From Planctomycetota bacterium (GTDB taxonomy: Bacteria; Planctomycetota; Planctomycetia; Planctomycetales; Planctomycetaceae): DNA of 38,858 nucleotides. A model generated the notes under the pieces. That model searched no databases, was not told where the DNA came from, and saw only the letters and a program-made list of their open reading frames with translations. The position numbers and the translations under genes were made by a program. The stretch's first letter is position 1. Every line of letters starts with the position of its first letter. The stretch spans positions 1 to 38,858 of the forward strand of contig JAURQH010000016.1 in the NCBI GenBank assembly GCA_030836185.1, written 5' to 3'. This document shows positions 9,051 to 18,591 of the stretch, piece after piece.

Positions 9051-11603
9051 ATGAACCGAATAATGCTTCACCTTATTCTGGCGTTTCTTATGATCTGGGG
9101 GCTCCCCACGGTCATCGTTCATGCTGCGCCTCAGAGTGAGAGTGAGGCCGAAACTCAATTTTACGAGGGTTTACGCCAAAGAGGATTGTTTACTTTGGTG
9201 GAAAGCACATTACAGGATCAGCTTGCGGGAGTGGCTTTGACTCCCGAAAAAGAGGATTTTTTACGCTTGGAGTTATCGAGGACTTATGCCTCTCATGCAG
9301 GCCATCGTCTAGGGGAAGAGCAAATTGAGCTGTGGAGATTAGCGAGGGAGACCATCAACAAAGATGTGACTGCGAGTTTTCGTTCCAAGTGGTCAGCTTA
9401 TCTTCAAGTCCAGAGTGCTTTGATTCCCTTGCAAGAGACTCGATTTCAACTCGAACAGTTTCGTTTAACACCCCACAACGGAGACTTGCGCAAAAGGGTT
9501 GCTAGCGAGTTGCAAGAGCACTTGAAATCCTTGAGAAAAGTTGAGACGACTCTCAGTCAACAATCGAATCAGGTGTTGGCTCGATTTCGAGAGAATCCGC
9601 GTTCGATGGCACCATTTGAGTTTCGTTCGGTACAAAAATTGATGATTTATGAGGTGGCACTCACACTCAGTCAGATCGCAGAAGTGGAATTCGGTTCGGT
9701 GGAAGGAAGACGACCTGCGATTCGAGCTGCTCTCGAACGACTGCGTACGCTGACAGGAGGCGCTGAAGACGAGTCAATGACATGGGAAGCTCGTGTGCTG
9801 GCGATTCGATGCGAATGGTTGCAAGGGGACTATGAAACCGCACGGACCCTCGCCAAAAGGTATTCAGGCGAATGGCCTCACACTTTGTTGGACGAAGTGT
9901 TGGCCGAAGAGGCAGAAATTGACCTTGCTACGGGACAACCCGATTTGGCGTTCGAGCGTTTGACTCGCTGGAAACTGGATCAAGGATATTTAGGTGGCGA
10001 ACTCACGCTTTTGAACTTAAGAGCTCTAGCCGCACTTTGGGAAATCGCCTGGCAGAGAAAACGTGAACAAATTTCGACGGATTTACTGACTCAAATACGA
10101 CAGGAGTCAGATCGTGTTCAACGCGAAGTCGGCGGTATCTGGGCATGGAGGGCAAGGCTTTTTGTAGAACAGATGCAACAAGCTGTTCAATATGGCCCCG
10201 AAATCGCAGAGCTGATTCGTGTCGCGCAAATAACCTATCAGGATGGCCAACTTGATGAGGCAATTATTCGTTATCAACAGGTTGCCGATCTTGCCGTGAA
10301 GCGGGAACGCCCTGAGATTGCCGTTGAAATGATGTTCACTGGTGGGTCAATACTGTTACAACAGCAACAGTTTGCAGAGGCTGAAAAGTTATTTCGAAAG
10401 GGTGTGGATCGATTTCCTGAGACAGAGCGTGCTGCAGATTGTCATCTTATGTGGGCTTGGTGTCTGGGTAAACAGTACGAACAAAAGCCAACGAAAAGTT
10501 ATCGCCTCCGTTACACAGAGTCTCTGGATGAACATCTCGAACTGTTCGGGACACGCTCTACGGCTGGAGATGTGCATTTGATGTACGGACAGTTTCAGGA
10601 AAATCGATTGCAGGTCACAAAGGCGGTAGAGCATTACTTGAAAGTTCCGCTTGGTCATCCCAAGTCTGTGATGGCAGATGTTGCCGCATTACGAAGCTAT
10701 GAAAAAATACTCAAGCTTCTTCGCGACCAAAATCGTTCCGTTGATGCTTGGCAGGATGAGGGAATTTTGCGTCTGATGCAACGAGTTTCATCCTACCCGT
10801 CGGAGTCAACTCAGCTTAGCTTAATGCATTGCCATGTTTTGTTGGGGGTTGTCAGCTTGCAATTGGGGGAAACGGAATTGGACGATCTGGCTATCTCACG
10901 TGAGTTATCTCGCGTGATTGAAGCCTGTTCGCTGCAAACTCAGCCTTCATCGAACGTGCACCAATGGCAAGAGATGGCACTAGCCGCATATCGACTGAAC
11001 ATCGTTTTTCTCGCTCAATCAGGAGAAATTCGGAAAGCGGAGGCATTGGTGTCCCGAGTTGCGCAAGCGGGACGCCAACCGTTATTGGAATTATTGAATG
11101 GTTTGTCGGTGGCAGCCGCTCAGGCAAGCCCTCAAACAAAACGGGGAATCGGCGAATTACAGTTGCAAACATCTCTCGCGCTCAATACGCAAAGAGACCA
11201 GCTTTCTGAAGAAGAACGTACTCTGTTGGATCGGAGCCTGGCTCGTGCCTATCTTTTGTCAGAACGATCACGTGAAGCTCATGAACTATACGAGAAGCTT
11301 CTGGAAGAAAACGCGAGTGACATTCAATTGCGACGCGAGCTGGCAGAATCGCTTTCGAAATGTGGAACAGTTGCCTGTCATCGACGGGCTTTGGTCCACT
11401 GGAGATATCTCGAAGGTCAGAGCAAGCAAGGAACCACCGATTGGCTGCAATTGCGAGCAGAGGTGATTGAATCTTTGGTGATCGTTAATCAGAAAGATGA
11501 AGCCAAACGCCTGATCTCTGTGACTGAGCTTCTTTACCCGCAGATCAATAACGAATCTCTTAAGCAGCGTTATGCGGAATTGAAACAAAAAATCGGTCGC
11601 TAG
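9051..11603 (+). CDS. Exported tetratricopeptide-repeat protein of unknown function
   Basis: An 850-residue protein with a clear signal peptide (hydrophobic about 5-20, likely cleavage after VIVHA). The rest is almost entirely helical and contains TPR-like helix pairs, for example around residues 390-460 (AIIRYQQVADLAVKRE, then FAEAEKLFRKGVDRFPETE) and again near 740-760. TPR arrays are protein-interaction scaffolds; no catalytic domain is visible. The ATG at 9051 has GGAG ten bases upstream. It is divergent from groES and convergent with the secreted-protein operon, so it is probably a single-gene unit. The role is unknown; a periplasmic scaffold is an inference. Confidence 0.8.
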   Translation: MNRIMLHLILAFLMIWGLPTVIVHAAPQSESEAETQFYEGLRQRGLFTLVESTLQDQLAGVALTPEKEDFLRLELSRTYASHAGHRLGEEQIELWRLARETINKDVTASFRSKWSAYLQVQSALIPLQETRFQLEQFRLTPHNGDLRKRVASELQEHLKSLRKVETTLSQQSNQVLARFRENPRSMAPFEFRSVQKLMIYEVALTLSQIAEVEFGSVEGRRPAIRAALERLRTLTGGAEDESMTWEARVLAIRCEWLQGDYETARTLAKRYSGEWPHTLLDEVLAEEAEIDLATGQPDLAFERLTRWKLDQGYLGGELTLLNLRALAALWEIAWQRKREQISTDLLTQIRQESDRVQREVGGIWAWRARLFVEQMQQAVQYGPEIAELIRVAQITYQDGQLDEAIIRYQQVADLAVKRERPEIAVEMMFTGGSILLQQQQFAEAEKLFRKGVDRFPETERAADCHLMWAWCLGKQYEQKPTKSYRLRYTESLDEHLELFGTRSTAGDVHLMYGQFQENRLQVTKAVEHYLKVPLGHPKSVMADVAALRSYEKILKLLRDQNRSVDAWQDEGILRLMQRVSSYPSESTQLSLMHCHVLLGVVSLQLGETELDDLAISRELSRVIEACSLQTQPSSNVHQWQEMALAAYRLNIVFLAQSGEIRKAEALVSRVAQAGRQPLLELLNGLSVAAAQASPQTKRGIGELQLQTSLALNTQRDQLSEEERTLLDRSLARAYLLSERSREAHELYEKLLEENASDIQLRRELAESLSKCGTVACHRRALVHWRYLEGQSKQGTTDWLQLRAEVIESLVIVNQKDEAKRLISVTELLYPQINNESLKQRYAELKQKIGR

Positions 11604-11626
11604 AATGAATTCCAGCGACCGATTTT
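11589..11626. terminator. Bidirectional terminator overlapping the TPR gene stop codon
   Basis: AAAATCGGTCGCT (11589-11601) is the perfect reverse complement of AGCGACCGATTTT (11614-11626). The plus strand ends in TTTT and the minus strand continues into a longer T-run (the A-run at 11587-11592), so it can serve both the TPR gene and the convergent operon. The left arm overlaps the TAG stop (11601-11603). Confidence 0.85.
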
Positions 11627-11650: not shown

Positions 11651-12400
11651 TTAAATTTCAGAATCGGCTTTCTTTTCGACGGCCGGTTTTGGTGCCAGAT
11701 CATGAGGGTGAGCACCGTGGTGTCGTAGGTGTCCACCGACTTTTGAGGGACCATGCGGGTGCTGAACATCAACCCGACGTTGCCACATGACAGGATTTGG
11801 TGCGAGCGGGTAGTTGGCACGATTCGGCATCCATTGTGGCACATGCTGGTAAGTGAAGCCGAGTTGTGTGGTATCCGTGGGCGTATGGACCATTGGATAT
11901 TGCACAGCCGAATACTTCATGCCGGGAGTTCCGTAGAACTGATTGGGCAAGTATCGTTGATAAGTCACCGGCTGATTAAAGACTCTGGGTTGTGATGTCG
12001 GGGGATAGAAACCGTAGTTCGGTGGAAGAGTTCCAGCATACGGGTCTTGACTAAACCAGACATGTACCGGAGTCGCGTATGATTTCGGTGTCCAAACTTT
12101 TCCATTCACATCAGTAATACCGTGACGATGATGCTTCACCACATTCCCGTGCTCATCACGAATGATGGCACCTTCCGGGATGGGTGAAATGGAATGAGCG
12201 GGATGAGAAACATCCATCTCTCCAGTGACTTCCGCCGGAAGAGGGACCGGTGCTTTGTTTGGCTCATTCGCGGCGGTTTGTTGAATACCATCCGAGATTC
12301 GAACCATTCCCGGTTCATCGGCGGATGCGGTTAGCTGCGGAACAATTCCGACACCGAGCATCGCAGTGGCTAACATCGTTCGAACAGAGGGAATGATCAT
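11651..12400 (-). CDS. Secreted planctomycete-type protein, Tyr/Pro/His-rich
   Basis: A 249-residue protein with a signal peptide (about 1-27, cleaving near ASA/DEPG). The mature end carries GMVRISDG. The body has no recognised domain: a segment with GNVVKHHRHGITD (about 105-117), a long stretch rich in Tyr, Pro, Asn and Gln (about 125-215), and a His/Pro-rich tail. It is the last gene of a three-gene minus-strand operon, 76 bases after its upstream neighbour, with which it shares the early VRISD motif. The ATG at 12400 has AGGA nine bases upstream. Function unknown; composition suggests a cell-surface or periplasmic structural protein. Confidence 0.72.
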   Translation of the reverse strand: MIIPSVRTMLATAMLGVGIVPQLTASADEPGMVRISDGIQQTAANEPNKAPVPLPAEVTGEMDVSHPAHSISPIPEGAIIRDEHGNVVKHHRHGITDVNGKVWTPKSYATPVHVWFSQDPYAGTLPPNYGFYPPTSQPRVFNQPVTYQRYLPNQFYGTPGMKYSAVQYPMVHTPTDTTQLGFTYQHVPQWMPNRANYPLAPNPVMWQRRVDVQHPHGPSKVGGHLRHHGAHPHDLAPKPAVEKKADSEI

Positions 12401-12476
12401 GTGACTGAATCCTGAATGTGTAAATTGACGTAATACGAATTCAAAAGGAGTGTTTTCACACTCCCTCAGTTTTGGT

Positions 12477-13142
12477 TTACGGTAGAGGTATCACTTTAGT
12501 CTGGGGATAACGGACAATTCCTGGCATGGCGGGAGCAGGCAAGGTATTGGCGACTGGAGTCAATCGGCTGCTGGGGATTCCCCATCCGTAGTTGTATGCT
12601 GCTCCGACATTGGGAGCCAAAGGAACAGAGACATTGACGCCATATCCTTGGGCAGAATACAGCGAACCATCTCGTCCATCGAAGTATTGGGGATTCACCG
12701 GATAAGCCATTTTGTAGCAACCAAAGGGTGGTGCTTGTGCCGGCTTGAAGTAACCGAACTTACGACTCGATTGGCACTTTTTTCCGTGGTGATATGGGCA
12801 ATTTCCGTTTTTGCAATGAGGGCAATTCGGGTGTGAATGTTGTTGCTGACAACGGGGGCAATCGCCACGATAGCGGTGCAATGTGAACATGCCACTAAAC
12901 AGTCTACGATACCCGCAACTATTGCAGTCTTCACACTGATCGCATGAGTCGCAGGCAGAGGATTTTTCCGTACATCCAAGATCTTCTTGAACGGCGTACG
13001 ACTGAAGCTTCATTTGGCTTCCCACGGTATCCTGGTCGCTAATGCGAACGACGCCGACGGTCGGTTCCTGGGCATTTGCCATTGTTGCTGCGAAGGCAAC
13101 AATGACGACTGAAAGACCAGCCAATCGATTCAAAAGTTTCAT
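12477..13142 (-). CDS. Secreted Cys-rich protein with a CXX repeat array
   Basis: A 221-residue protein with a good signal peptide (MKLLNRLAGLSVVIVAFAAT, cleavage after MANA). The mature N-terminus contains VGVVRISDQD, matching the downstream neighbour. There follows a run of five cysteines spaced three apart (CDSCDQCEDCNSC), then more Cys/His pairs (CPRC, CPHC, HSHPNC, CPYHH); I count 13 Cys in the mature protein. This could bind metal or form disulfides. The C-terminal half is Tyr/Gly/Pro-rich, with motifs such as FGCYKMAYPVNPQYFDGRDG. The start is placed at ATG 13142; an upstream in-frame extension to 13214 would bury the signal peptide. Middle gene of the operon. Function unknown. Confidence 0.75.
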   Translation of the reverse strand: MKLLNRLAGLSVVIVAFAATMANAQEPTVGVVRISDQDTVGSQMKLQSYAVQEDLGCTEKSSACDSCDQCEDCNSCGYRRLFSGMFTLHRYRGDCPRCQQQHSHPNCPHCKNGNCPYHHGKKCQSSRKFGYFKPAQAPPFGCYKMAYPVNPQYFDGRDGSLYSAQGYGVNVSVPLAPNVGAAYNYGWGIPSSRLTPVANTLPAPAMPGIVRYPQTKVIPLP

Positions 13143-13237
13143 GGCGTTCACCAATCCCTTTACTGTCAATGCGTTTGTTTTATTCTTAACCAGAAGGATT
13201 GATTCTTGTATCAATCCCCTCTCGGCATTGGTAACAA

Positions 13238-13777
13238 TTACCGTTTGAATCCACGAAAGCCTGAGAACACCCCATACTTGGGTTTGTATTTGACGTCGAC
13301 CGTACTACCGGTCAATGTCCAGACATCGTTACTGCGAACTCCAAAGGGAGTCACAACCCATCCACCTTTGACGACGTAGTAAAACGGTGGATACATTGCT
13401 TTGTAACGGTGCTTGTACAGCATTTCATGTGGATAAAATGCTTGGTTTGTGTGCATTGTTCCGCCCACTTGATAGGGGACGTTAGGAATGGGAGATGGAT
13501 ACAATGGTGCGCCGGTTTGCGGGTAGGCGTTGATCGCTTGCCCGGGAGCGGGTTGCATTGCGTTTGGCACGCCTGCCATCTGCTGCTGCGACATCATGGT
13601 CGCCCCATGGTGCATTGTGTGTGCCGGTAACAAAGATGGTTGAACCCCACCTGTGTATTGAATGGCTGAGTTTTGGCCAGTCGGTAAAAATTGCGGTGAT
13701 TGGGCGTAGGCACCGTTGAGAACAAACGCGGTCAGCCAGATGGTAACCACTGTTTGAATGATCTGTGAGCGGGACAT
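13238..13777 (-). CDS. Small secreted planctomycete-type protein
   Basis: A 179-residue protein with a signal peptide (hydrophobic about 8-22, cleavage after AYA). The middle is low-complexity, rich in Gln, Pro, Met and Ala (about 25-100). The C-terminal 65 residues look like a compact domain: HEMLYKHRYKAMYPPFYYVV, then KGGWVVTPFGVRSNDVWTL, then VDVKYKPKYG. The ATG at 13777 has a strong AAGGAGG about six bases upstream, the best ribosome-binding site in the cluster, suggesting high expression. It is the first gene of the three-gene operon, 95 bases before the Cys-rich gene. I do not recognise a named family. Confidence 0.75.
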   Translation of the reverse strand: MSRSQIIQTVVTIWLTAFVLNGAYAQSPQFLPTGQNSAIQYTGGVQPSLLPAHTMHHGATMMSQQQMAGVPNAMQPAPGQAINAYPQTGAPLYPSPIPNVPYQVGGTMHTNQAFYPHEMLYKHRYKAMYPPFYYVVKGGWVVTPFGVRSNDVWTLTGSTVDVKYKPKYGVFSGFRGFKR

Positions 13778-14252
13778 TCCGTTCCCTCCTTGGGTTCAAT
13801 GTCTCATTCTTCGTCGGGTGGGGGGTAAAACGTCGAGTCCTCCGACGTACACTCCCAACGATGCGAATAGTCATCATTCATTTTCGGCACTCCGGGTTCG
13901 GTTCTATGAGGTGACTTCTGGCAATGAGTGACCTCGGCAATCAAAAAGAGACGTGCAACCCGTCAAAGCGTTATAATCGGCAATCCTTGTCACGACTGGC
14001 CAGATCTGGCTAAGATATGCGACGAAGGTTCACTCGGCACCTGAACATTTCATGTCAGTGTCCGTAAACACTGGTAACATAGGGCAATCCATACTTGATC
14101 CCGGCGAACAGGAAAGAGACACTGTGTGAACAGAGATGACTGACTGAGTGAAGCTGGGCAGCCTTGAGTGACTGTACCAGTTGTATCGATATTGCCAAAT
14201 TCAACGGGCTGTTAACAGCGAGAACAGCACTGTCAGGAAGACGGAGTGACCA
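13778..14252. other. Divergent intergenic region with small inverted repeats
   Basis: A 475-base spacer between the secreted-protein operon (minus) and the topoisomerase pair (plus). ACGTCG/CGACGT arms lie at 13830-13848 and CAGTGT/ACACTG arms at 14056-14073; either could be an operator. A TATAAT (13972-13977) on the plus strand has no good -35 at the usual distance, so it is only a weak promoter candidate. No coding region or known RNA was recognised. Confidence 0.5.
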
Positions 14253-16613
14253 TTGGCCCCCAGAAAATCTGCAGACAAGAAGTCCGAAGATTCTGATCGT
14301 ATTCAATATGTTCCGCTGAGTGCGGAGACCAGAAGACGCTATCTGAATTATGCGCTTTCCGTGATAACTTCACGCGCGCTTCCCGATGTGCGCGATGGAT
14401 TGAAGCCAGTACAAAGACGTATTCTTTACGTCATGTATCACGACTTGCGTCTCACGCCTGACGCAAAGACTCGAAAGTGTTCAAAAATTTGCGGTGATAC
14501 GACGGGTAACTATCACCCTCATGGTCAGTCTTCTGTGTATGACACTCTTGTTCGAATGGCGCAAGATTTCAGCCTCCGATATCCTCTGGTGTTCGGTCAA
14601 GGAAACTTTGGTTCGGTGATCGGCCTCTCTCCGGCAGCAGAGCGATATACTGAGGCGCGTCTTGACGCGATCTCAGAAGAACTGATGTCTGAGTTGCGGT
14701 ATCAGACAGTCGATATGCGCCCGAATTACGATGCCACACGCGAAGAGCCTGTTGTGCTTCCTTCGCGTTACCCCAATTTGTTGGTCAATGGATCACAGGG
14801 AATTGCGGTCGGTATGGCCACAAATATTCCCCCCCACAATCTTTCCGAAGTGGTGAAGGCCGCGATACACCTCATTGATGCCGATAATGCGACCGTTGCA
14901 CAGTTGATGAAATATGTCAAAGGACCCGATTTTCCGTTGGGGGGACGCATCGTCACGGATCGAAGAGAGATTCGTAAGGCGTATGAGGAAGGCCGAGGGG
15001 GCATCAAAGTCAGGGCAACTTGGGCTTTTGATAAAAAAGGTCGAAAGACCCTCGATACTCGAATTGTGATTAATTCTGTTCCTTATGGTGTCGAAACTGG
15101 ACCATTGGTTTCTTCCATTGGCGAAATTGTCGCGTCACGAAAAATCCCGCAACTGATTGATGTCTCCGATGAATCCGATGAGGAGCAGGGGTTGCGATTG
15201 GTGTTGGACATCAAATCCGCTTCAGATTCCGAAGCGGTCATGGCGTATCTCTATAAACATACAACACTCGAACAAAACTTTTCGATGAATCTGACGGCGT
15301 TGGTTCCCGATGAGCAGGGGATGCCGATTCCTGCTCGATTGAGCCTGGTCGAAATACTCAGGCATTTTCTGGACTTTCGCTTGATTACCGTTCGCAAACG
15401 ATTCGAGTATCAACTCGAACAACTACGCAAACGCATTCATATCCTGGAAGGGTTCGGCATCATCTTCAAAGGCCTCGATAAAGCCTTGAAGATCATTCGG
15501 AATAGTCAAGGAAAGCAGGATGCGGCTGAAAAATTGATGAAGGCGTTCCCGCTCGATGAGGTCCAGACGTATGCGATTCTGGAAATTCAACTCTATCGTA
15601 TCTCTCAGTTAGAGATTGAACGAATCCTGGGAGAGCTAAATGAGAAACGAGCCGAAGCAAATCGAATCGAGAAGATTCTGAAATCGGAATCTCGCCTATG
15701 GAAAGTCGTGAAATCAGAACTGAAGGATTTGGCCGACAAGTTTCCTGATAAAAGACGAACCGAGATTGGTAACTCTGATGAAATCCAGGAGTTTGATCCT
15801 CAAGCCTATATCGTGCGTGAAAACACTAATGTCGTGATCACCGTCGATGGCTGGGTCAAACGAGTCGGTCGGTTGGCATCAGTCGAGGGAACACGGGTTC
15901 GTGAGGGGGATGCGGTACTCGATGTTATTCCGGGGAGCACACTCGATAACGCCGTCTTTTTGTCGTCTGCCGGCGTGGCATACACGATGTCGATGGCCGA
16001 TGTCCCCGCTTCGTCGGGATACGGTGACCCGATCTCAAAGTACGTGAAATTGGGGGATGGTGAGAAAATTATCGGGATGATAACAACCGATGTTCGATTC
16101 ACTTCAGAAGACTCTCCTGCCAATGATCCCATGCCCGAACCTTATATCATGATTGCCACGGCGCAAGGACAGGTCTCGGCCATCTCGCTCTCGCAATATC
16201 GGCCTACTTCCACCAAAGCCGGACGCCGGTATGCTCGGTTGAGAAAAGAAGATCATGTGGTCTTTGCCAAGTTGATCACCGAGGAAGAATCCATCTTTTT
16301 AGCCACTCGGCAAGCACGCATTGTTCATTTTGGTTTGTCTGACGTACCCGTGCTGGGCAATCCCGGGATTGGTGTCAAGGGAATCAAACTTGAGAAGAAC
16401 GACGAAGTTCTTGGGGCTGCCATGATGGCAAGACCCAGTGACTCATTGAAGATTTTGAATTCCAACGACACTGTCATCACAATCGGCCAGCAGAAGTACA
16501 ACATCACTTCTCGTGGAGGCAAAGGTATTAAGACAAGCCAAAGGAATACCTTTGTTGAAATCCAACGGCCTGAGATTGATTTGGTCGACTGGAATGAGAT
16601 GGAAGAAGAATAA
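14253..16613 (+). CDS. Type IIA DNA topoisomerase, subunit A (ParC/GyrA-like)
   Basis: The DNA-cleaving subunit of a gyrase or topoisomerase IV heterotetramer, 786 residues. The breakage-reunion domain shows ALPDVRDGLKPVQRR (42-56), GNYHPHGQSSVYD (85-97) and RYTEARL with the catalytic Tyr132. The C-terminal part (about 520-775) has repeats typical of the beta-pinwheel DNA-wrapping domain, and SRGGKG near 753-758 resembles a GyrA box, but at the end rather than in the first blade. It ends in an acidic tail. The usual DGQGNFGS-DGD loop reads FGQGNFGSVIGLSP, losing acidic residues near the active site. An in-frame stop (14247-14249) and no suitable ATG leave TTG 14253 as the start, with GGAG eight bases upstream. 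The B subunit follows 46 bases later. Confidence 0.9.
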   Translation: MAPRKSADKKSEDSDRIQYVPLSAETRRRYLNYALSVITSRALPDVRDGLKPVQRRILYVMYHDLRLTPDAKTRKCSKICGDTTGNYHPHGQSSVYDTLVRMAQDFSLRYPLVFGQGNFGSVIGLSPAAERYTEARLDAISEELMSELRYQTVDMRPNYDATREEPVVLPSRYPNLLVNGSQGIAVGMATNIPPHNLSEVVKAAIHLIDADNATVAQLMKYVKGPDFPLGGRIVTDRREIRKAYEEGRGGIKVRATWAFDKKGRKTLDTRIVINSVPYGVETGPLVSSIGEIVASRKIPQLIDVSDESDEEQGLRLVLDIKSASDSEAVMAYLYKHTTLEQNFSMNLTALVPDEQGMPIPARLSLVEILRHFLDFRLITVRKRFEYQLEQLRKRIHILEGFGIIFKGLDKALKIIRNSQGKQDAAEKLMKAFPLDEVQTYAILEIQLYRISQLEIERILGELNEKRAEANRIEKILKSESRLWKVVKSELKDLADKFPDKRRTEIGNSDEIQEFDPQAYIVRENTNVVITVDGWVKRVGRLASVEGTRVREGDAVLDVIPGSTLDNAVFLSSAGVAYTMSMADVPASSGYGDPISKYVKLGDGEKIIGMITTDVRFTSEDSPANDPMPEPYIMIATAQGQVSAISLSQYRPTSTKAGRRYARLRKEDHVVFAKLITEEESIFLATRQARIVHFGLSDVPVLGNPGIGVKGIKLEKNDEVLGAAMMARPSDSLKILNSNDTVITIGQQKYNITSRGGKGIKTSQRNTFVEIQRPEIDLVDWNEMEEE

Positions 16614-16659: not shown

Positions 16660-18591
16660 ATGGCGACTGCTGCGAAAAACGAAAATAACAAATACAACGC
16701 TGACGATATCGAAGTTCTCGAAGGACTCGAAGCGGTCAGGCGTCGGCCATCGATGTATATTGGTGGAGTCGATAATCGAGGGCTTCATCACTTGTTGTGG
16801 GAAATTGTCGATAACTCCGTCGATGAATATTTGGCAGGAGAAGCGGATCGCATCAGCATCACTCTCCATAAGGATAGTGCCTCCGCAACGATTGGAGATA
16901 ACGGTCGCGGTATCCCCGTCGATAAACACAAGAAACTCAAGAAGTCGGCTCTTGAAGTCATTCTCACGACTCTACACGCCGGGGGAAAATTTTCAGACAA
17001 AAACTATGCCCGTAGTGGTGGATTGCATGGTGTCGGCTCTTCGGTGGTGAACGCACTCTCTGAAGAGATGGTGGCCACCGTGCATCGTGATGGTTATGAA
17101 TGGGTCCAACGATACAAACGCGGACGCCCCACGACTCCCGTGAAGAAAGTGAAGAAATTTCGTGGTCACGGAACCTCCATTTTCTTTCGTCCCGATGATT
17201 CCATTTTTCGCAAAACCATATTCAATGCCGAGACGATCAAGCAACATCTGGAAGACATTTCCTATATTCATGGTGGTTTGAATATTTCATTCGAGGATGA
17301 AGGGAAAAAAGAAAAAGTTGAATTTCATCATCCAGAAGGGATTGCCGGCTATCTGGAAAAAATCACGAACGAAAGTGGGAAGAAAGTCGTTCACGAGCAA
17401 ATGTTTTCAGCGGAGAAAGAAGACGGAAACACCAAAGTTGAAATCGTCTTACATTGGACCGAATCGACCGACGAACAGATTCGTAGTTATGTGAACGGGA
17501 TTCGTACTCATGGAGGAGGGACACACGAGAACGGGTTCAAATCAGGAATCAACAAAGCCATCCGTAACTATATGGAGGTCCACAATATCAAGCAAAAAGG
17601 CCTCAGCATTACGGCAGACGATATCCGTGAAGGGTGTATGGCAATTACGTCCGCCTTTCTCTCAGACCCGATGTTCCAAGGACAAACCAAAGAGAAACTG
17701 AATAATCCCGAGATGACCGCTTGGGTGGAAGGTCTGGTTCGTCCCGCTTTGGAAACTTGGCTCAATAACAATCCATCGATTGCCGATGCGGTTGTTGGCC
17801 GTATTGTCTTGGCAGCACGAGCACGTCTGGCAAGTCGTGAAGCCTCCAGCGGTGTGAGGCGAAAAAGTCCATCCAAGCGAACCAGCTTGCCCGGCAAGCT
17901 GCTCGATTGCCGCTCGACCAAATCGGACGAATCCGAATTATTTATCGTCGAAGGTGATTCTGCCGGTGGTACAGCCGCAATGGGAAGAGACAGCCGCACA
18001 CAAGCTGTGCTTCCATTACGCGGGAAGATACTTAATACAGAATCGCTGTCAGCGTCGAAGGCAACTCAGAATCAAGAAGTCAAAGACCTCGTCGAAACTT
18101 TAGGAACAGGGATCAGCGATCATTTCGATATTCATAATCTGCGATACGGAAAAATCATCCTCCTCATGGATGCGGATAGCGATGGCTATCACATCAGCAC
18201 ACTTCTGCTGACCTTCTTCTTCCGTCATATGCCAGAATTGATTCGAGCAGGGAAACTTTACCTGGCTCAACCACCTCTGTATCGGATTCTGGTTGGTAAA
18301 GAAACTATCTACGCTCAGGATGATGCGGAGAAAGAAGAAATTCTGAATAGCCTTCCAGAAAATCGAAAAACTGAAGTGATTCGATTTAAAGGGCTCGGTG
18401 AAATGTCAGCCAAACAACTGAAAGAAACGACTCTCGATCCCGCAATCCGAATTTTGCTCAAAGTGGATATCGACAGTCAATTGGAAGCGGATGCGACGTT
18501 TTCCCAACTCCTGGGAAAAGATGCGTCCGAACGATACAAGGTGATCATGGAAGAGGCGAGCTTCGTCGATCTCGAAGAGATTGATCTCTAG
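16660..18591 (+). CDS. Type IIA DNA topoisomerase, subunit B (ParE/GyrB-like)
   Basis: The ATPase subunit paired with the upstream A subunit, 643 residues, the usual length for ParE or a GyrB without the proteobacterial insertion. The GHKL ATPase has EIVDNSVDE (Glu48 as general base, Asn52), GDNGRGIPV (79-87) and GGLHGVGSS (120-128), with a QTK loop at 342-344. The TOPRIM metal site has Glu431 in VEGDSAGG and DADSD (504-508), where GyrB usually has DADVD. RFKGLGEM (575-582) is near the C-terminus. The ATG at 16660 has a weak GGAT upstream. Cotranscription with the A subunit is expected from the 46-base gap. Gyrase and topoisomerase IV cannot be told apart safely by eye. Confidence 0.92.
   Translation: MATAAKNENNKYNADDIEVLEGLEAVRRRPSMYIGGVDNRGLHHLLWEIVDNSVDEYLAGEADRISITLHKDSASATIGDNGRGIPVDKHKKLKKSALEVILTTLHAGGKFSDKNYARSGGLHGVGSSVVNALSEEMVATVHRDGYEWVQRYKRGRPTTPVKKVKKFRGHGTSIFFRPDDSIFRKTIFNAETIKQHLEDISYIHGGLNISFEDEGKKEKVEFHHPEGIAGYLEKITNESGKKVVHEQMFSAEKEDGNTKVEIVLHWTESTDEQIRSYVNGIRTHGGGTHENGFKSGINKAIRNYMEVHNIKQKGLSITADDIREGCMAITSAFLSDPMFQGQTKEKLNNPEMTAWVEGLVRPALETWLNNNPSIADAVVGRIVLAARARLASREASSGVRRKSPSKRTSLPGKLLDCRSTKSDESELFIVEGDSAGGTAAMGRDSRTQAVLPLRGKILNTESLSASKATQNQEVKDLVETLGTGISDHFDIHNLRYGKIILLMDADSDGYHISTLLLTFFFRHMPELIRAGKLYLAQPPLYRILVGKETIYAQDDAEKEEILNSLPENRKTEVIRFKGLGEMSAKQLKETTLDPAIRILLKVDIDSQLEADATFSQLLGKDASERYKVIMEEASFVDLEEIDL

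Follow-up and report, generated by a model that had tools for sequence, protein, structure and literature searches.

A conserved three-gene module for putatively exported, proline- and tyrosine-rich planctomycete proteins, often divergent from a type II topoisomerase gene

Results

Three consecutive genes with conserved cores

The window analysed here, a stretch of 38,858 nucleotides from a member of the Planctomycetaceae, carries three consecutive open reading frames on its minus strand, here called C, B and A in operon order. Gene C (13238..13777, minus strand) encodes 179 aa, gene B (12477..13142, minus strand) 221 aa when counted from its ATG (the longest open reading frame begins at a TTG at 13214), and gene A (11651..12400, minus strand) 249 aa; the gaps are 95 bases between C and B and 76 between B and A. 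A likely ribosome-binding site, AAGGAGG (13785..13791, minus strand), lies 7 bases upstream of the C ATG, in agreement with the initial annotation, which had called this site almost ideal. The dN/dS values against the two nearest genomes (L094 and L093) are 0.07-0.10 for C, 0.08-0.18 for B and 0.10-0.15 for A, which supports all three genes as coding, dS to the farther genome, L093, being 2.1-2.5 and thus near saturation. A 17-pair terminator-like hairpin (11589..11626, minus strand) separates gene A from a convergent gene for a TPR protein; the pattern scan that found it returned 6 such sites against 2.6 expected, and such a match is no proof of function. Between B and A there is also a 7-pair hairpin (12447-12464), with TTTT next on the minus strand, which could reduce A expression.

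A signal peptide was recognised by eye at the start of each of the three products, with cleavage sites between AYA and Q in C, ANA and Q in B, and ASA and D in A. Neither Pfam nor NCBIfam gave a significant match for the C, B or A of the window, two Pfam hits of gene B below the cut-off (E 0.12 and 0.63) being at chance level, so the original description of signal-peptide proteins with no known domain stands. Sequence comparison with the PDB assigned the module proteins to no significant family, and no fold emerged from AlphaFold models built with three sequences per alignment (mean pLDDT 36.8 for C and 29.4 for A).

What the homologues conserve is one core in each protein. That of C (13241..13558, minus strand; profile A1) reads APLYPSP..ITNQAFAPHEMLYPH..YYY.V.G.W..TPFG..LxGTxVxVKY, and the C-terminal YYVVKGGWVVTPFG block singled out by the initial annotation belongs to it. 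The core of B (12525..12821, minus strand; profile A4) reads YxDxRDGxxYxAQGYGVPVxVPLAPNVxxxYNYGWGxPSSRLTP, and that of A (11741..12055, minus strand; profile A3) YxxYxPxxWYGxP..PxVYxPTDTTQLGYYYQxVPxW. The same annotation had singled out a VRISD motif behind the signal peptide, shared by two of these proteins, as the mark of the operon. The motif is real, as VVRISD in B (VRISD codons 13035..13049, minus strand) and MVRISD in A (12290..12304, minus strand), and among the 26 places in the window's genome that match a nucleotide pattern for VRISD and its near variants, only these two lie just behind a signal peptide (translated contexts, by eye). As a family signature, however, it fails: RISD-like motifs occur in a minority of the homologues of B (15/39) and A (19/39) and are absent from all 79 C and all 40 fused B-A proteins. 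VRISD was therefore rejected as the defining feature; the hallmark of the module is its three conserved cores.

Distribution across planctomycetes

When single proteins were searched against 59 relatives, 37 Planctomycetaceae genomes (the window's own included) were covered: 35 of them had a C match and 35 a B match with E below 1e-10, and 33 had an A match with E below 1e-6. No convincing C, B or A was found in two genomes of this family, G009 and G011, whose completeness is 95% and 79%; in two others, G024 and G033, B and A form a single protein.

A C profile and a profile of the fused B-A protein matched an identical set of 131 of the 248 genomes searched in the class (E up to 0.001; the two lists were compared by eye, and any row that went into a profile matches it by construction). 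There is one C match in each of the 131 genomes, of which 68 belong to the Planctomycetaceae (family f1 in our numbering) and 63 to 14 families besides (f5, f7 and f86-f97). Families f2, f3, f4 and f6 contribute none of these matches. In a sample of the whole phylum, the two profiles again matched the same genomes, 12 of 199, all of them inside the class. Homologues scattered with no co-occurrence, the outcome named beforehand as contrary to a module, are thus not what we found, and the proposal that the genes form a module is borne out by their operon-like arrangement and their conservation as a unit.

Family f1 was equated with the Planctomycetaceae, the family of the window, because it contains Planctopirus limnophila (genome G297, recognised as strain DSM 3776 from its plasmid, with 6000/6000 bases at 100%), in which the module is present, its genes lying at 150,235-152,692 of the chromosome. 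Likewise, f2 contains Paludisphaera borealis (G050) and hence corresponds to the Isosphaeraceae. Many of the other families that carry the module are probably Pirellulales, to judge from their topoisomerase VI, an enzyme that the available part of PMC11302465 reports in Pirellulaceae, Lacipirellulaceae and Thermoguttaceae.

Gene order and the split of B and A

We compared 81 loci, 46 from the Planctomycetaceae and 35 from other families, chosen from the hits before their neighbours were known (genomes G013 and G031 contribute two each). In 78 loci C occurs together with B or B-A, and in 77 of these it leads, with both on one strand; L228 differs in that its called open reading frames overlap, yet its matched cores stand in the usual order. 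B precedes A in 38/38 loci. Three loci of the Planctomycetaceae (L117, L126 and L255) have an extra same-strand open reading frame of 159-219 aa between C and B, and in G036 (L127:7713-12563) gene B encodes 1616 aa, its signal peptide and its core being separated by a very long insert.

Outside the Planctomycetaceae, the fused profile matched across both halves in all 35 loci; within this family B and A are mostly separate genes, and five loci are fused. In profile comparison the B core corresponds to the middle of the fused protein (E 7e-19) and the A core to the C-terminal part of that protein (E 1.4e-9), and hence B and A are complementary halves of it; the two cores barely match each other (probability 0.9%). 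Both split genes retain a signal peptide. Tandem duplication of a fused gene followed by complementary loss would best explain these sequences, the change presumably running from an ancestral B-A protein to separate B and A. In a FastTree phylogeny of the C core, all five fused rows of the Planctomycetaceae and one split row (L122) fall outside the rest of the split rows. A tree of the adjacent topoisomerase A subunit divides the fused rows of this family (four of the five were included) between two positions, and a single clade of all split rows was not rejected by an AU test (p 0.315). The five fused loci of this family may thus be ancestral or may have arisen by re-fusion through deletion.

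Composition and export features

By a crude rule of our own (not SignalP), 190 of 197 module proteins have a signal peptide, and by another of our rules only 4/197 have a cysteine at +1, as expected of a lipoprotein; by eye, none of the three window proteins does. Proline and tyrosine are abundant. In the Planctomycetaceae the median proline content is 12.1% in C, 9.5% in B and 13.9% in A, against 5.1% in 317 neighbour ORFs drawn from the same loci, and the median tyrosine content is 6.6%, 5.8% and 5.8%, against 2.6% (the control ORFs include some spurious antisense ones, such as a cluster opposite the topoisomerase VI subunit B gene, top6B). Proline is high in all five groups tested. Cysteine is high only in B and A of the Planctomycetaceae (medians 4.5% and 2.5%, against 0.9% in the neighbour ORFs and 0.5% in C); the fused proteins of other families have a median of 0, with none at all in 18/35. 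Among the window proteins only B is cysteine-rich, its Cys/His-rich spacer holding several CxxC pairs and histidines, and the number of cysteines ranges from 0 to 35 among 39 B homologues.

Neighbouring genes

Divergently from gene C runs a type IIA topoisomerase A subunit gene of the GyrA/ParC type (14253..16613, plus strand), one of two copies in the window's genome, which is followed by a B subunit gene of the GyrB/ParE type (16660..18591, plus strand); both are conserved neighbours. Such a divergent arrangement of C with a type II topoisomerase gene occurs in 63 of the 81 loci, 35 with a GyrA/ParC-type enzyme and 28 with topoisomerase VI. In the Planctomycetaceae the type IIA A gene is divergent and within 1.5 kb of C, or overlaps it, in 32/46 loci, with the B subunit also seen in 19/46. 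Outside this family, C is divergent from topoisomerase VI subunit B in 28/35 loci, followed in many of them by top6A, and from a type IIA enzyme in 3/35; beside C, the GyrA/ParC and GyrB/ParE pair lies in the Planctomycetaceae and in three f5 loci. Neither enzyme was seen in the remaining 18 of the 81 loci, of which at least five (L103, L109, L111, L132 and L247) lie at a contig end.

The profile of topoisomerase VI subunit B (TIGR01052) scores above its cut-off in 53 of the 248 class genomes; the only genome of the Planctomycetaceae that matches it at all, G406, does so weakly, under the cut-off. In one f6 genome, G041, which has no match to the module, pieces of top6b lie on two contigs. In a choice of 25 genomes, a single type IIA A subunit was counted in each of the nine that have topoisomerase VI, and two in each of the other 16 (in G042, two fragments of one frame were taken as one subunit). 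The lack of topoisomerase IV in those members of this group that have topoisomerase VI has already been published (PMC11302465, in the part available). Our literature search found nothing on the two topoisomerases alternating beside this module, and it is this that we observe: two types of decatenase alternate at one place.

On the other side of the module, the convergent TPR gene of the window (9051..11603, plus strand) encodes 850 aa with a signal peptide (by eye), and a TPR homologue lies convergent downstream of the module in 18/81 loci. Outside the Planctomycetaceae this gene is followed by ExbD/TolR genes in 7/35 loci and by ExbB/TolQ in 6; the 46 loci of the Planctomycetaceae yielded no Exb gene. 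In L130, L219, L232, L236 and L237 a Tol/Exb-like operon stands convergent to the module, with genes for a weakly VWA-like protein, an uncharacterised protein, ExbB/TolQ, one or two ExbD/TolR and the TPR protein.

Discussion

The make-up of the protein-rich planctomycete envelope is an old open question. Taking together the gene order, the co-occurrence, the cores, the composition and the split and fused architectures, we propose, with a probability of roughly 0.4, that the module supplies structural protein to the SDS-resistant planctomycete envelope. C, B and A would be one transcription unit for Sec-exported proteins, each cleaved by signal peptidase I and consisting of one conserved Pro/Tyr-rich core and a fast-changing spacer. 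In the Planctomycetaceae, the Cys-rich spacers of B, and often of A, could form disulphide cross-links outside the cytoplasm, and the cross-linked proteins would join a protein layer that is SDS-resistant and rich in proline and cysteine. Such an envelope, rich in Pro and Cys, was described chemically for Planctomyces and Pirellula in the 1980s (Liesack 1986, as related in the available part of PMC3035269), and the proposed role fits that description, with Pro/Tyr-rich proteins throughout and Cys-rich B and A in the Planctomycetaceae. It also fits the absence of the module from the Isosphaeraceae, since the Isosphaera wall is described in the available part of PMC3072084 as being without cysteine, methionine, proline and tryptophan. 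Two limits apply. Because C and the fused B-A proteins of other families are not enriched in cysteine, disulphide cross-linking cannot be universal and would concern the Planctomycetaceae at most; and since peptidoglycan has been reported in planctomycetes (PMC4432640, in the text available), a protein layer would not be the sole wall. Our literature search recognised no paper on this module and found no proteomic, localisation or mutant data for it.

The gene neighbours point to chromosome segregation at least as much as to the wall. They could mean that the bud neck is where the proteins work, in the periplasm or outer layer and together with the Tol/Exb-like operon, and that their expression accompanies that of the decatenase at chromosome separation. 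The divergent topoisomerase, whichever the enzyme, and the convergent TPR and Exb genes speak for such a division role, which we nevertheless consider doubtful: its support is neighbourhood only, the module proteins carry no division-protein domain, the TPR protein scores under the YbgF cut-off, and the Planctomycetaceae loci are without Exb genes. Moreover, Isosphaeraceae bud, although they have no module. A bolder form, in which envelope proteins of the bud and the decatenase share a divergent control region as a locus for daughter-cell parting, the pairing being kept by selection despite an exchange of topoisomerase VI and a topoisomerase IV-like enzyme at this site, strikes us as a long shot. 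The linkage may also be inherited gene order with no functional meaning, to which we give a little short of even odds. That the module persists in the loci where neither enzyme was seen favours mere history, even if some of these end with their contig; against it stand the linkage with two unrelated enzyme types and the fact that, apart from the topoisomerase subunits and the TPR gene, no neighbour cluster occurs in more than 10 loci. Mere history can, in any case, be combined with an envelope, division, appendage or metal-binding role.

Two further roles bear on the proteins themselves. Signal peptides, richness in proline and tyrosine and fast-changing spacers would also suit a surface appendage or attachment protein (of holdfast, crateriform pits or fibres), and P. 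limnophila, which has the module, is stalked and forms rosettes (PMC3035269, in the part available). A single C match per genome and a core conserved over 14 families besides the Planctomycetaceae, with no adhesin or repeat domain in the 104 sequences scanned with Pfam, make this quite unlikely. The CxxC pairs and histidines of the B spacer might instead bind metal, in a periplasmic metal- or redox-binding protein, yet what is conserved is the core and not the spacer, and the cysteines vary widely among the B homologues and are missing from about half of the non-Planctomycetaceae fused proteins, so that we regard this role as highly improbable.

We therefore return to the structural envelope role as our working proposal. 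In the genomes searched, the module is confined to part of one class and present as a single copy per genome, and its place beside a decatenase, with two types of enzyme, offers a handle on a possible coupling of chromosome separation and envelope growth. Since it is present in P. limnophila, whose genes have been screened and modified (PMC10632474, in the text available), the proposal is directly testable.

The module resembles several known systems and differs from each of them. (i) Like Tol-Pal and Exb operons, some loci have convergent ExbB/TolQ, ExbD/TolR and TPR genes, but in Pfam and NCBIfam no module gene matches TolQ, TolR or YbgF, and the TPR protein falls under the curated cut-off. 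(ii) With the SDS-resistant envelope of Planctomyces and Pirellula it shares the proline-rich make-up, and cysteine too in B and A of the Planctomycetaceae, whereas that envelope is known, from the part of the source available, through a bulk chemical description that assigns nothing to the module genes. (iii) The YTV proteins (PF07639), Cys-rich proteins reported from planctomycete wall preparations (PMC8567305, in the part available), are likewise cysteine-rich planctomycete proteins with a signal peptide (by eye), and both kinds occur in the window's genome, which encodes two very Cys-rich YTV-domain proteins (L269 and L271). PF07639 matches none of the three window proteins, and no Pfam family matches any of the 104 sequences scanned; while YTV proteins are built of short Y/V/C-rich repeats, C, B and A have one conserved core each.
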